Below are positions 2,219 through 43,670 of a DNA stretch of 43,918 nt, piece after piece; position 1 is the stretch's first letter; every line of letters starts with the position of its first letter. Source of the DNA: Bacillota bacterium (GTDB taxonomy: Bacteria > Bacillota > Desulfotomaculia > Desulfotomaculales > Ammonificaceae). Below the pieces are notes generated by a model, which saw nothing but the letters and a program-made list of their open reading frames with translations, made no database searches and was not told the DNA's origin. The stretch lies in assembly GCA_020063185.1 (NCBI GenBank), contig JAGUUY010000064.1:1-43918 (forward strand), written 5' to 3'. Position numbers and translations under genes: made by a program.

Positions 2219-2283
2219 ACTCCGCTTCTTCCTTTCCCCTAATAAAGGCTTAAGGGACAAGTCTGCAAACTGTGGAGGGCAAG

Positions 2284-3579
2284 TTGAACAGACAGCCGCT
2301 TGCCGCGCGTTACAAGCCTCTCACCCTCGAGGAGTTCGTCGGCCAGCGGCACCTTCTGAAAGAGGGTGGGCTTCTTTACCGCGCAATCGCGGCCGGCCGC
2401 CTCGGGTCGGCCATCTTTTACGGGCCGCCGGGCACAGGGAAAACAGCCCTGGCCGGAATAGCCGCCCGTGCCGCCGACAGTCCTTTCGTCAGGCTCAACG
2501 CCGCGCTCACCACCGTCAAAGAAATTCGGGAAACGGCCGGTCGCGCCGCCGCTTCCGGCCGCCCCGTGCTCCTTTGTCTGGACGAGATTCACCACCTTAA
2601 CAAGCTCCAGCAAGACGCTCTGCTCCCGTTCGTGGAGGAAGGCCACATAACACTTATCGGGACCACCACCGAAAACCCTTATTTCGAGATCGTGGGGGCG
2701 CTCCGCTCGCGGGCCACCATCTTTCGGTTCGAACCCCTCGCCGCGGAGGACCTGAAAACCATCCTGTGCCGGGCGCTCGCCGATGAGGAACGGGGCCTCG
2801 GGCACTACACCGTTGACGTGGAAAACGAGGCCCTGGAACACTTCGCCGGCGCTGCCGCGGGGGACGCCCGGGTGGCGTTGTCGGCCTTGGAATTGGCCGT
2901 GTTGACCACCCCGCCCGACAAAGACGGCAGGATTACCATCGACCTGCCGACCGCGGAAGAGTGCATCCGCCAGCGGGCACTCAAGTACGACAAGTCAGGC
3001 GACACCCATTACGACGTCGCCTCGGCTTTTATCAAGTCCATACGCGGCAGCGACCCCGACGCCGCGTTGCACTACCTTGCGCGGGCGATCGAGTCCGGCG
3101 AGGACGTAAAGTTTATCGCCAGGCGGATGGTCATCAGCGCCGCCGAAGACGTCGGTCTCGCCGACCCCAGGGCGCTGGTCATCGCCCAGGCGGCGGCTGA
3201 CGCGGTGCAGTTCGTCGGCTTTCCCGAGGCGCGGATCATCCTGGCCGAGGCCGCGGTGTACCTGTCTCTCGCGCCGAAGAGCAATTCGGCTTACCTGGCG
3301 ATAGAACGCGCCAGGGAAGACGTGCTGAAAAGAGAGACCGGCCAGGTGCCGCTTCACCTCCGGGATGCCAGTTACCGCGGCGCCGGGACGTTCGGCCACG
3401 GCAGCGGCTACAAGTACCCACACGACTATCCGGGCGGCCTCGTGCCGCAGGAATACCTCCCCGAAGAGATCCGCGGTACCGCGTATTACCACCCGAACGA
3501 ACGCGGCGCCGAAACCACCCTCAAAGAACGTCTTGAACGCCTCCGCGGCCTTCGGGAGAAGAAGAAGACTGAATTGTAG
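2284..3579 (+). CDS. rarA: AAA+ ATPase, replication-associated recombination protein A (RarA/MgsA)
   Basis: LAARYKPLTLEEFVGQRHLL, Walker A FYGPPGTGKTALA, Walker B LCLDEIHHLNK, IGTTTENP. TTG start at 2284 after GGAGGG preferred over the track's GTG at 2272. Confidence 0.93.
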   Translation: MNRQPLAARYKPLTLEEFVGQRHLLKEGGLLYRAIAAGRLGSAIFYGPPGTGKTALAGIAARAADSPFVRLNAALTTVKEIRETAGRAAASGRPVLLCLDEIHHLNKLQQDALLPFVEEGHITLIGTTTENPYFEIVGALRSRATIFRFEPLAAEDLKTILCRALADEERGLGHYTVDVENEALEHFAGAAAGDARVALSALELAVLTTPPDKDGRITIDLPTAEECIRQRALKYDKSGDTHYDVASAFIKSIRGSDPDAALHYLARAIESGEDVKFIARRMVISAAEDVGLADPRALVIAQAAADAVQFVGFPEARIILAEAAVYLSLAPKSNSAYLAIERAREDVLKRETGQVPLHLRDASYRGAGTFGHGSGYKYPHDYPGGLVPQEYLPEEIRGTAYYHPNERGAETTLKERLERLRGLREKKKTEL

Positions 3580-3618
3580 AAGATAGAAGACAGAAGGTAG
3601 AATATAGAAGGTAGAATT
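3577..3618 (+). repeat. Heptad array A
   Basis: TAGAAGA TAGAAGA CAGAAGG TAGAATA TAGAAGG TAGAATT: six in-register 7-mers beginning at the rarA stop codon. Confidence 0.85.
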
Positions 3619-3683
3619 CTGATAAAAAATCAGTTCGAACACAACAGCTTTGAATTATATTTTTGATCCCGGACTAAAGAATT

Positions 3684-3718
3684 TTACTTCTAAATTCTAA
3701 ATTCTATATTCTGAACCG
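3684..3718 (+). repeat. Heptad array B
   Basis: TTACTTC TAAATTC TAAATTC TATATTC TGAACCG. Confidence 0.7.
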
Positions 3719-3753: not shown

Positions 3754-3806
3754 GTCGAACGTCGAACGAACCATCCGTCTGAGCTTGACCGGGGACTGAG
3801 GACTAA
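3754..3806 (+). repeat. Heptad array C (composite, inverted relative to 10118-10184)
   Basis: GTCGAAC GTCGAAC ... GGACTGA GGACTAA; its reverse complement resembles the 10118-10184 element. Confidence 0.65.
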
Positions 3807-3864: not shown

Positions 3865-3959
3865 GGGAGTGGATGGTGCCTGGTGGTGCTCCTGGTCTTC
3901 AAAACCAGTCGGCGGGCCACAAAGTCCGCGGTGGGTTCGATTCCCACGCACTCCCGCCA
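3865..3959 (+). tRNA. selC: tRNA-Sec (anticodon TCA), encoded CCA
   Basis: GGGAGTG(3865-3871)/CACTCCC(3949-3955), then GCCA; anticodon arm CTGGT-CTTCAAA-ACCAG with TCA at 3899-3901; long variable arm GCGGGC..GTCCGC; T arm GTGGG-TTCGATT-CCCAC. 95 nt, matches selC architecture. Confidence 0.95.
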
Positions 3960-3982
3960 GAAAGCAATCAGAAAAAAATGAT

Positions 3983-4014
3983 TCCCTGCTCACATAAAGT
4001 GAGGAGGGAGTTTT
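3983..4014 (+). terminator. Rho-independent terminator downstream of selC
   Basis: TCCCT-G-CTCAC-ATAAA-GTGAG-G-AGGGA hairpin followed by GTTTTTA. Confidence 0.75.
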
Positions 4015-4120
4015 TAGATTGGGCAGTCTTTTTGCGGTAACCTTAATATATATTCAAATGAAAAACCACGTAGAACATTATTGGTAATTTTCCCCGGTAA
4101 CTTCAAACTTGCACGCCGAC

Positions 4121-5069: not shown

Positions 5070-5603
5070 ATGAAGAAGCTGGACGACAGAATTGTTCTTG
5101 GGCTGTTGTTGGGTTTCCTCGGCAACATCCCCAAGACCGTTCTAAATGAAGTTCTAGTACAGGCCGGCATCGAGAAAAAGCGTTTTGGCGAAATCGTGAG
5201 CGGGATATTTGTAACGCGTAAAGAGGCGACTTCTAAATACGGAATGGCCTTTGGCGTGGCGGGGGACTTCGCGGTCGCCTCGGTCCTCGGCATAGCTTAT
5301 GTTTGCTTGTTGTCGAAGTCGGGAAGCGGCGCAAAATTCATTAAGGGTATGCTTACCGGGTCCATCGGCTTTGGGTTGTTCCGCGGCATAGTAGCCCACT
5401 TGGGCGCCCGCGGGACTTATCCGGTTGACGTCGTTTCGAACGCCGGCATGGCGTTTGCCAGCGCCTTATGGGGTATAACCGTCGGGGGCCTCAGTACTTT
5501 CTTGGCGGACGAGGACCTCTTTAGAGCACGGAGAAGGGCTAATCTAACCGTTAAACCGGTTTCTTCCAAGGTTCCGCCGAAAAAGGCGACGGTTCGCAGT
5601 TAG
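5070..5603 (+). CDS. small multi-TM membrane protein, unknown function
   Basis: ATG after CGGAGG RBS; several hydrophobic segments; resembles the next gene. Confidence 0.75.
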   Translation: MKKLDDRIVLGLLLGFLGNIPKTVLNEVLVQAGIEKKRFGEIVSGIFVTRKEATSKYGMAFGVAGDFAVASVLGIAYVCLLSKSGSGAKFIKGMLTGSIGFGLFRGIVAHLGARGTYPVDVVSNAGMAFASALWGITVGGLSTFLADEDLFRARRRANLTVKPVSSKVPPKKATVRS

Positions 5604-8998: not shown

Positions 8999-9364
8999 TT
9001 AAAACGCGTTTTCAATGTGCTCCATTTCTTTGACCTTCCTGCCGCCCGCTTCGAATTGAACCGCAATCACATCGAAGCGGCAGAAACTGCCCTTCCGTAC
9101 TTCGTTGGTAAGGTAGTAGCGCGCAACCTCCCGTATTTTTAAACGCTTTTGGCGGGTGATGCTCTCCTGGGGAGTGCCGAAACCTGTGGAACCTTTAGCC
9201 CGGACCTCAATAAAGACCAGGGTCTTTCCGTCAATGGCGATGACGTCGATTTCCCCATAGCGGCAGCGATAGTTTCGCGCCAAGATTTTAAAACCTTTAC
9301 GCTGTAAGTGGTCTGCGGCCAGCTTTTCGGCAAGCGCGCCGAGCGTCTTCCTGTGCTCTTCCAC
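8999..9364 (-). CDS. YraN/UPF0102 family protein
   Basis: LGALAEKLAADHLQRKGFKILARNYRCRYGEIDVIAIDGKTLVFIEVRAKGS. Confidence 0.94.
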   Translation of the reverse strand: MEEHRKTLGALAEKLAADHLQRKGFKILARNYRCRYGEIDVIAIDGKTLVFIEVRAKGSTGFGTPQESITRQKRLKIREVARYYLTNEVRKGSFCRFDVIAVQFEAGGRKVKEMEHIENAF

Positions 9365-10117: not shown

Positions 10118-10304
10118 GTCCTCAGTCCTAAGTCAAGCTTAGACGGATAGACCTTTGGGGTCCGTTCAAGGTTCGAAGTTAAACAACAAGAATCCGGAAT
10201 CCAAGGCTGATCGCTAACGGCTGAAAGCTGACAGCTATCAAGGCTTTTGACTCGCGACTCGTGACTACTTAGACTGCTGACTACTGACTACCGACTACCG
10301 ACTA
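10118..10304 (+). repeat. Heptad array E (composite)
   Basis: 10164-10240 is 11 consecutive in-register 7-mers; 10249-10304 is GACTCGC GACTCGT GACTACT TAGACTG CTGACTA CTGACTA CCGACTA CCGACTA; 10118-10138 is GTCCTCA GTCCTAA GTCAAGC. Confidence 0.9.
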
Positions 10305-10305
10305 C

Positions 10306-11133
10306 TTAATCCATCTCCTGGTAATCGTCAAGAGTAAACCTTCCCAGACGGCCGTCCCGGAAATCTTTAAGGAATGTAACCGCTGCCTTGAAACGGTCGA
10401 CCTGCCCCCCGGCGACTATCAGTCCACGTTTGAGGCCGATGGATTCTAAAAGCGTGCCGGGGCTTGCAGGCAGTGCGGGTAATTGGTAGCGCCGCTTCAG
10501 CACCCCGGGGTAATGCTGCTTGAGCCAGTCCAGCAGCCAGAGGGCTACACCCTCGCTGTCTATAACTTCTTCTTTGATAGCGCCGGTGGCGGCGAGTTTC
10601 AAAGCCGCTTCCCTGTTATCCAGACGCGGCCGGAGAACGCCGGGCGTATCAAGGAGTTCGATGCCCGGCGATACCCTTACCCACTGCCTGCCGCGGGTCA
10701 CACCGGGCAGGGCGCCTGTCCGGACGGACTTCTGCGCGGCCAGCCGGTTAATAAAAGTTGACTTGCCCACGTTCGGAATACCCACGACCATTCCGCGGAT
10801 CACGCCGGTGCGTCCGGGTTTTGCAACTGTCTTCACCGCTTGAGCTATTCTGCTGTGACCGCGCCCGGTGGAAGAGTCAATCTGGATTACCGGATGTTTT
10901 CCTCTCGCCAGCGCGGTTGTCCAAAGACGTGTCTGAGTCGGGTCGGCAAGGTCAACTTTATTTAATACCACTACGCGGGGGGTTTTCCAAACAATAGCGT
11001 CAATATCGGGATTGCGACTGGACAGAGGGATCCGCGCGTCCAGCAGTTCAAAGACAATGTGCACCTGTTTGAGATGCTCGCGGATGAGCTTCCGGGCCTT
11101 CGCCATGTGGCCCGGATACCAGTTGATCTCCAT
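10306..11133 (-). CDS. rbgA: Ribosome biogenesis GTPase RbgA/YlqF
   Basis: INWYPGHMAKARKLIREHLKQVHIVFELLDARIPLSSRNP; GIPNVGKSTFINRL; circularly permuted GTPase order. Confidence 0.95.
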   Translation of the reverse strand: MEINWYPGHMAKARKLIREHLKQVHIVFELLDARIPLSSRNPDIDAIVWKTPRVVVLNKVDLADPTQTRLWTTALARGKHPVIQIDSSTGRGHSRIAQAVKTVAKPGRTGVIRGMVVGIPNVGKSTFINRLAAQKSVRTGALPGVTRGRQWVRVSPGIELLDTPGVLRPRLDNREAALKLAATGAIKEEVIDSEGVALWLLDWLKQHYPGVLKRRYQLPALPASPGTLLESIGLKRGLIVAGGQVDRFKAAVTFLKDFRDGRLGRFTLDDYQEMD

Positions 11134-28189: not shown

Positions 28190-28224
28190 AGTCCCAAGTC
28201 CAAAGTCGAAAGTCCTAAGTCGAA
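28190..28224 (+). repeat. Heptad array F between mraY and murD
   Basis: AGTCCCA AGTCCAA AGTCGAA AGTCCTA AGTCGAA; further CGCGATT CGTGATT at 28287-28300. Confidence 0.85.
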
Positions 28225-28331
28225 AACTGATGCCGGAAGGACAAGGATTTTGGACTCTAACTGAGGACTAAGGTCTGTTAGTGACACGCGATTCGTGATT
28301 CGCAGCTTTATTTCAGACGGAGGGTGTTTTT

Positions 28332-38047: not shown

Positions 38048-38057
38048 TGGACCTGAA

Positions 38058-38227
38058 GGATGAGGGATGAAAGTACATTTAAAAGTTCTTCATCCTTGCA
38101 AGGAGCCCGGAGACACAGGCCAGATCGCTGCATAATAACTTTTGGTCTTCTTATCAACATGGAACGTTGAAACGGACCCCCAAGGTCCACGCTCGAACCG
38201 TGAACTGTGAACTGTGAACTGTGAACG
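38058..38227 (+). repeat. Heptad array G between DUF881 and sbp
   Basis: GGATGAG GGATGAA at 38058-38071; GTGAACT x3 + GTGAACG at 38200-38227. Confidence 0.8.
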
Positions 38228-38288
38228 GATCTCCAAGGTCCATCATTTTGAGCCCAACTCGAACCAATTCCTAAGGAGGACTTTTGCG

Positions 38289-38648
38289 ATGTGGGTCGGT
38301 ATCTGGCTGGCGATAATTGGTCTGGTCATCGGTATAGCGGTCGGGCTTAAGGTTCCGCTTGTTTTTCCACAAGCATACGGGAAGTATATGGGGCTGGCGG
38401 TGCTAGCGGCCCTGGACTCGGTCTTCGGCGGGGTTCGCGCTTCCATGGAAGAACGCTTTGATAACGTGATTTTTTTGAGCGGCTTCTTCAGCAATGCCCT
38501 GTTGGCGGCCGGACTGGTATTCATCGGCGACCGTCTCGGGGTTGAACTTTATACGGCGGCGATCGTCGCTTTCGGCGTACGTCTCTTCCAAAACTTGGGT
38601 ATAATCAGGCGCTATCTGCTGAAAAAATCTAATAAAGTAAAAAAGTAA
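38289..38648 (+). CDS. sbp: Small basic protein Sbp family (DUF1290)
   Basis: MWVGIWLAIIGLVIGIAVGLKVPLVFPQAYGKYMGLAVLAALDSVFGGVRASMEERFDNVIFLSGFFSNALLAAGLVFIGDRLGVELYTAAIVAFGVRLFQNLGIIRR. Confidence 0.9.
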   Translation: MWVGIWLAIIGLVIGIAVGLKVPLVFPQAYGKYMGLAVLAALDSVFGGVRASMEERFDNVIFLSGFFSNALLAAGLVFIGDRLGVELYTAAIVAFGVRLFQNLGIIRRYLLKKSNKVKK

Positions 38649-40994: not shown

Positions 40995-41278
40995 GGTTCA
41001 ACGTTCAAGCTCAAGGGATAGACCTTTGAGTCCGTTCACAGTTCACAGTTCGAAGTTAGGCTCAGACGGCATAGATCTTTAGGTCAGATAAGAATACACC
41101 ACACAGAATACAGAATAAAAAGATTTTGAATTCGGAATCCAAGGCTGATGGCTGACGGCTGATAGCTGACAGCTAGTTATAAAAGAATTGTTCACGGCGA
41201 TTCACCGTTACCCAGGTATGAAAATGATTTTTTATTGCTGTGCTTCAGTCTCCTATTAACGTTGAACGTTGAACGGAC
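40995..41278 (+). repeat. Heptad array H (composite) between spoIIGA and sigE
   Basis: GGTTCAA CGTTCAA (40995-41008); GTTCACA GTTCACA GTTCGAA GTTAGGC (41034-41061); ACAGAAT x2 (41103-41116); GAATTCG GAATCCA AGGCTGA TGGCTGA CGGCTGA TAGCTGA CAGCTAG (41128-41176); AACGTTG AACGTTG AACGGAC (41258-41278). Confidence 0.9.
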
Positions 41279-41336
41279 CCCAGAATGTTATCTATATTAG
41301 CTTGCACGTTGAACGATTTAGAAGGAGGGACGCGAT

Positions 41337-43606: not shown

Positions 43607-43637
43607 TCTGAGAAATGGGCTTTCCCGATTTCTCAGA
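43607..43637. terminator. Hairpin adjacent to heptad array I
   Basis: TCTGAGAAAT(43607-43616)...ATTTCTCAGA(43628-43637) 10-bp stem; no clean T run. Confidence 0.45.
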
Positions 43638-43670
43638 CTCGGGACTTTAGACTTTCGACTCGGGACTTAT
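43636..43670 (+). repeat. Heptad array I overlapping the ATPase 3' end
   Basis: GACTCGG GACTTTA GACTTTC GACTCGG GACTTAT. Confidence 0.85.

Follow-up and report, generated by a model that had tools for sequence, protein, structure and literature searches.

The composite at positions 10118-10305 of the window, i.e., of the whole stretch of DNA analysed here (43,918 bp, the entire contig C189 of a genome of 1.94 Mb in 242 contigs, 82% complete; "own genome" in the following), belongs to a large population of non-coding repeat mosaics that lie between genes and consist of 7-nt tandem tracts and short connectors. The clusters of this population are inverted "mirror" mosaics, because tracts of a left type precede tracts of a right type in them. 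This near-absolute polarity rule, which holds in more distant relatives too, is the main new result.

Concerning its organization, the composite extends beyond the limits noted earlier: it fills positions 10118-10305, borders on the stop codon of the next gene (10306-11133, minus strand), and runs as a chain from GTCC heptads through S1 (a connector of about 30-32 nt), GTTC heptads, S2, GCTGA heptads and S3 to GACTC and GACTAC heptads:

10118-10305, no strand assigned: whole composite, in the gap between two minus-strand genes (sequence; 57 genomic matches)
10118-10134, plus strand: left-type heptads GTCCTCA GTCCTAA GTC (sequence; inverted match at about 3773-3803)
10134-10163, plus strand: connector S1 (CAAGCTTAGACGGATAGACCTTTGGGGTCC; nhmmer match at 10134-10174, E 3.9e-12)
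10164-10180, plus strand: left-type heptads GTTCAAG GTTCGAA GTT (sequence)
10181-10204, plus strand: connector S2 (AAACAACAAGAATCCGGAATCCAA), common to many loci of the own genome
10205-10236, plus strand: right-type GCTGA heptads (match to 41128-41175, 92% over 48 nt)
10237-10248, plus strand: connector S3 (ATCAAGGCTTTT), common to many loci of the own genome
10249-10305, plus strand: right-type heptads GACTCGN, then GACTACN (period-7 tract at 10266-10316; R:AGTC tracts)

Three matches of this element to other parts of the window had been claimed in an earlier note, and each of them scores higher than the best of 1000 shuffles: 10118-10148 is identical to the reverse complement of about 3773-3803 at 27 of 31 positions (score 21.0 versus a shuffle maximum of 13.0), 10132-10180 aligns with about 41004-41050 (22.5 versus 13.5), and 10191-10236 aligns with about 41129-41174 (42/46 identical; 36.0 versus 13.0). 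An additional inverted copy, not included in these three matches, is situated at 41256-41304. The further description in that note, of a dispersed, modular element with variable heptad number and copies in both orientations, is borne out across the genome, where a search with the element yielded matches at 57 places (E<=0.01), several of them with the module order kept over more than 100 bp. The inverted order of the tracts goes beyond this first description. The other clusters of the window are the following:

3573-3617, plus strand: left-type AGAA heptads, which follow the stop codon of gene 2272-3579
3678-3718, plus strand: right-type TTCT heptads (period-7 and tract calls)
3757-3803, minus strand: shortened S1 and GTTC heptads, then right-type GGACTGA GGACTAA in plus-strand reading (nhmmer match 3787-3757, E 0.0044; alignment)
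28190-28224, plus strand: left-type AGTC heptads, five units (period-7 and tract calls)
28252-28273, plus strand: degenerate right-type arm GGACTCTAACTGAGGACTAAGG (sequence)
38192-38254, minus strand: right-type GAAC heptads, then inverted S1 (S1 at 38254-38216; orthologous gaps)
41006-41051, plus strand: S1 and left-type GTTC heptads (nhmmer; alignment)
41128-41175, plus strand: end of S2 and right-type GCTGA heptads, 92% identical to 10190-10237
41256-41304, minus strand: inverted S1 with GAAC (AACGTTG) heptads, which form the right arm of the 41-kb cluster
43633-43668, plus strand: right-type GACT heptads, close to the contig end

A selenocysteine tRNA gene at 3865-3959 adjoins a heptad cluster; it is the sole match of an Rfam scan in the window, and the same scan gave zero matches in six further loci.

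The window contains seven tracts of period 7 and none at other periods from 4 to 15 except 14 (the double), and ten shuffles of the window contain no tract of period 7. In 291 kb of the genome, 59 period-7 tracts were counted versus 0 to 2 at other non-multiple periods and 0 in a shuffle, densities being biased upward, since most of the analysed stretches were picked for carrying repeats. The heptad words mostly consist of one of four roots and a variable tail, namely GTTCNNN, AGTCNNN, AGAANNN and CAGCNNN, or their reverse complements. S1 is present in about 70 copies in approximately 305 kb (nhmmer, E<=0.01), nearly all of which are followed by GTTC heptads. Because assembly breaks probably fall on repeats, copies are probably undercounted. 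Contigs C1, C112, C192 and C139 of the own genome (G000) terminate inside repeats.

Within a cluster, read on either strand, tracts of AGTC, GTTC, AGAA and CAGC come first (left), and tracts of GACT, GAAC, TTCT and GCTG follow later (right). Under a strict count, which excludes tracts called twice with opposite polarity, 39 transitions are left-right and none is right-left (22 in the own genome, 9 in G001, 6 in G002, 2 in other families of the order); the root assignment was fixed after the clusters of the own genome, G001 and G002 had been viewed, such that the counts there are partly circular, and some clusters share descent and not all are independent, such that no exact p-value is claimed. 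Two apparent reversals in the own genome are single tracts double-called with opposite roots, and none is left once such tracts are excluded. Among 110 clusters of a single polarity, a weaker partner arm is found on the expected side in 41 and on the wrong side in none; this set includes 7 of the 18 clusters in other families, all with the arm on the expected side. With weak tracts included (relaxed calls), and with the other families counted as well, the proportion of left-right to right-left is 72 to 3.

Of 16 possible root assignments in the own data, only the chosen one and its mirror image are perfect. A set of 20 further stretches of G001, which had no part in fixing the assignment, contains 5 left-right transitions, the single contrary case being a doubly called tract; the other sets of this kind are those of the other families of the order (2:0 for transitions, 7:0 for partner arms) and of distant Bacillota families (6:0, relaxed tracts). 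Inverted S1 pairs obey the same left-right order. The single trinucleotide TGA was considered as a polarity marker and is weaker than the four roots (15:1 in the own genome, 20:4 elsewhere). A large mirror cluster is situated in G001 (C2:193304-193619), where a long AGTCCCG array with 12 overlapping exact matches is followed by right-type arrays. Many matches to a control pattern of four CTGANNN units, another abundant heptad root, are found in G011, G026, G028, G036, G128, G151 and G311.

Concerning the placement relative to genes, 148 of 149 repeat features are intergenic according to a simple codon-usage gene finder, which misses some small genes, such that its figures are approximate. Repeats occupy 7 of 17 convergent, 39 of 154 co-directional and 1 of 19 divergent gaps, and many tracts begin a few bases from a stop codon. 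The tract nearest to a stop codon is left-type in the sense direction (54 to 1), and right-type tracts are the nearest ones to start codons (32 to 3).

Synteny of the window exists with G002 (82-85% DNA identity), G001, G003 and others. S1 exists also in the other two members of the genus and in three more genera within the family; the two genomes of genus g5 gave no match. The S2-GCTGA-S3 module was not found in the 40 relatives, except that two genomes from another family have GCTGA heptads; as far as the compared genomes show, it constitutes a species-specific expansion. In five orthologous gaps, the own genome, G001 and G002 often all possess heptads, yet with differing words, modules and even orientation; in G003, G004 and G005 the same gaps are mostly short and heptad-free, although at the 41-kb site G004 retains a remnant with GAAC. 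In the gap 38048-38290, heptads are confined to the own species. At L058:10411-10461, the own genome has one extra unit of S1 plus heptads (39 nt) compared to G002, and the heptad tails have changed in concert (GTTCTAC versus GTTCTAA), a concerted change seen at this one compared site. At another site, species-specific modules are flanked by an S1 and by TTCT heptads, both conserved, and so lie within an older array, and a composite of about 230 bp at L064:11827-12041 is missing from G002. Arrays appear and vanish fast, yet they return to the same positions; not at every site can gain be distinguished from loss. The presence/absence polymorphism among relatives on which the earlier note had made its reading depend is found, together with turnover at the same sites.

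Two other kinds of dispersed repeats were observed. A MITE-like element of about 100 bp with inverted ends CCAGCACTCA/TGAGTGCTGG is found at L021 and L028 (own genome), L110:~5190-5520 (G004) and L168 (G001), two copies lying inside heptad clusters of the own genome. An intergenic repeat of about 200 nt with the core GGAGCG...GGAGCGTAC...ACGTGAG, which is without an Rfam match, is repeated in the own genome and in G001 (L075:~3920-4100, the 3' part of L030, and several places of L167 and L168).

Dispersal, modular order, intergenic placement, presence/absence, polarity and, at one site, concerted heptad change are direct observations, and the spread of repeat pieces is supported by them. The explanation that we prefer, although we hold it tentatively, is a non-autonomous, STRR/BIME-like mirror mosaic spread by slippage and recombination. 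Slippage with a period of 7 nt would lengthen, shorten and homogenise the arrays, and host recombination or repair, guided by heptad homology, would copy pieces from array to array or into new sites between genes; such copying would bring the connectors along in fixed order and keep the inward polarity, the origin of which it leaves unexplained. Copies would persist above all at 3' ends and in the gaps of co-directional genes, presumably the places of least harm. Both this mechanism and the copying route between arrays are inferred, as is the near-neutrality of the arrays, and the element, which carries no gene, has in our opinion no enzyme of its own. As counterpoints, recombination preserves polarity and does not create it, and was not seen directly; the same polarity across families with unrelated connectors suggests a shared directional cause; and the arms do pair in other families.

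The term "possibly mobile element", used in the earlier note, fits the repeats only loosely: the pieces spread, but fixed ends and a convincing target-site duplication were not found at the few sites compared, and neither a Y1 transposase nor a reverse transcriptase or Ku gene was seen to track the repeats. These observations bear on a second explanation, unlikely but worth considering, namely a MITE- or REPIN-like miniature fold-back whose arms would be the heptad tracts, and which would be moved by a transposase from another locus and would have nested repeatedly into older copies. The inverted arm order fits it, as do the composite present in the own genome and missing from G002 at orthologous sites and a fold-back of about 170 bp that recurs at L058:~9110-9240, L065:~1445-1600 and L075:~3155-3325; the latter has ACCACAGAG/CTCTGTGGT ends, its heptad arms are AGTCC/GGACT, its centre is G-rich, and G002 is without it at the L058 and L075 sites. 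However, target-site duplications, sought at the few orthologous sites compared, were neither convincing nor consistent, and the ends are not consistent either, although the inverted order is present. Moreover, insertion into an arm predicts right-left order, of which the strict calls contain zero cases. According to a search of 41 genomes (several of the repeat-bearing ones being incomplete), none of Y1_Tnp, Ku and reverse transcriptase tracks the repeats: G003 and G005 carry S1 without Y1_Tnp, which is common where S1 is absent. A dedicated enzyme belonging to some other family may exist.

A role in RNA, in which the arms would pair within transcripts and thereby either protect or terminate the 3' ends of mRNAs, or would be processed as rRNA insertions, is in our opinion quite unlikely. 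The position after stop codons is consistent with it, and so are the simple complementary heptad hairpins of G026, the better pairing of arms than of mixed arms in the pooled other families (p 0.03), and the folding, with a mean z of -1.9 versus -0.5 for random pieces. G014 and G038 furthermore possess a heptad-armed insertion within the gene for 23S rRNA, some 660-690 nt downstream of the 5' end (L157:4855-8338, L160:2848-6319, L162:2245-5702), which we take to be situated near helix 25, a usual place of intervening sequences; heptads are found in rRNA spacers too. In the own genus, by contrast, pairing between arms of the same cluster is no better than between arms of different clusters (p 0.82, 0.31, 0.92), S1 has no consensus fold (RNAalifold, 91 copies, no pairs), the composite at 10118-10305 folds no better than shuffles, and a terminator-like site was sought inside it and not found. 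Specific base pairing therefore does not explain the polarity in the own genus, and folding as the cause of the mirror order was rejected, being weak on average, absent in this composite and unspecific as to arms in the own genus. The fast turnover argues against a role in RNA as well.

Recognition of the arms as paired sites, by a protein that would bind DNA or RNA, read the 7-nt unit and bridge the two arms, is improbable, although this explanation, by analogy with the paired sites of Geobacter metallireducens and the TAACTGA sites of Beggiatoaceae, would account for constant 4-nt roots, variable tails and inward pairing. Several different roots occur per genome, turnover at the same genes is high between close species, and insertions are found in rRNA genes of relatives. 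Still more doubtful is an undescribed directional process, in which a templated or repeating polymerase would add 7-nt repeats to both exposed 3' ends at an intergenic gap or break, either side growing inward independently, and the ends would then be joined. It predicts the polarity rule and sequence-independent arms, as observed, and heptads often begin at a gene end; later breaks within an arm, however, should yield right-left order, of which none is seen, and Ku was not found in G000, G002 and G003, nor reverse transcriptase in G004 and G005, all of which bear S1. Plain polymerase slippage at unrelated sites, without a dispersed element, is very improbable: heptamers are the most abundant longer simple repeats in most bacterial genomes surveyed, and slippage has been proposed for them (survey cited in PMC4679880), but slippage explains homogenisation within tracts and not shared connectors or polarity, and dozens of loci share S1, S2 and S3 in a fixed order.

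The repeats are a variant of the intergenic heptad-repeat kind outside the REP/BIME and SDR families, in which they are not placed because the unit is not palindromic, a RAYT-group Y1 transposase does not co-occur, and S1 has no conserved secondary structure. Heptameric STRR arrays and small dispersed repeats (SDR) are said to have been described for Nostoc-type cyanobacteria by Mazel in 1990 and Elhai in 2008. Tandem 7-nt arrays dispersed between genes and an embedded short dispersed repeat (S1), the features of STRR and SDR, are both present in the own genome, and the similarity extends to nested copies, the intergenic arrays being broken by short dispersed repeats; unlike in the Nostoc type, the words are different, the phylum is another, and S1 is without a consensus RNA fold. 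We know of no description of inward polarity for the Nostoc-type repeats.

BIME/REP mosaics and REPINs (PMC2817692, PMC3116915) are similar as extragenic motif mosaics of alternating orientation and high copy number, whereas the unit here is a heptad tract and not a palindrome, and the REP-associated Y1 transposase does not track the repeats. The heptad-armed 23S insertion of two relatives resembles 23S rRNA intervening sequences (PMC2801512, PMC4990558), unlike the copies of the window, which lie between protein genes and are without an ORF. The TAACTGA direct repeats of Beggiatoaceae are likewise intergenic heptamers in many sets, and are described in PMC4679880 as one fixed word in 2-6 copies, mostly just upstream of start codons, with one inverted set reported. 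A literature search yielded no report on repeats in Ammonifex.

Concerning polarity, the repeats are comparable to paired sites of Geobacter metallireducens, which are given in PMC2700814 as tandem 7-8-nt repeats, mostly in opposite-strand pairs at variable distance, with the consensus MTYCTGA and others and 16 to 48 sequences per class. Inward opposite-strand pairs of tandem repeats are also found here (39:0; 41:0), and according to a legend of the same source TTCTGA reads at the 3' side of each strand, which is the polarity of the present clusters. The Geobacter sites are read there as regulator sites, the binding of a global regulator being put forward as a hypothesis only, whereas many words, connectors and rapid turnover are found here. 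The polarity rule can be tested on sequence alone and discriminates between slippage, transposition, end addition and paired sites of a protein, such that the question of heptamer origin becomes testable; suitable material for it is provided by close relatives in which orthologous sites are occupied or empty. If true, addition to 3' ends would explain the period and polarity common to the heptad repeats of unrelated bacteria.
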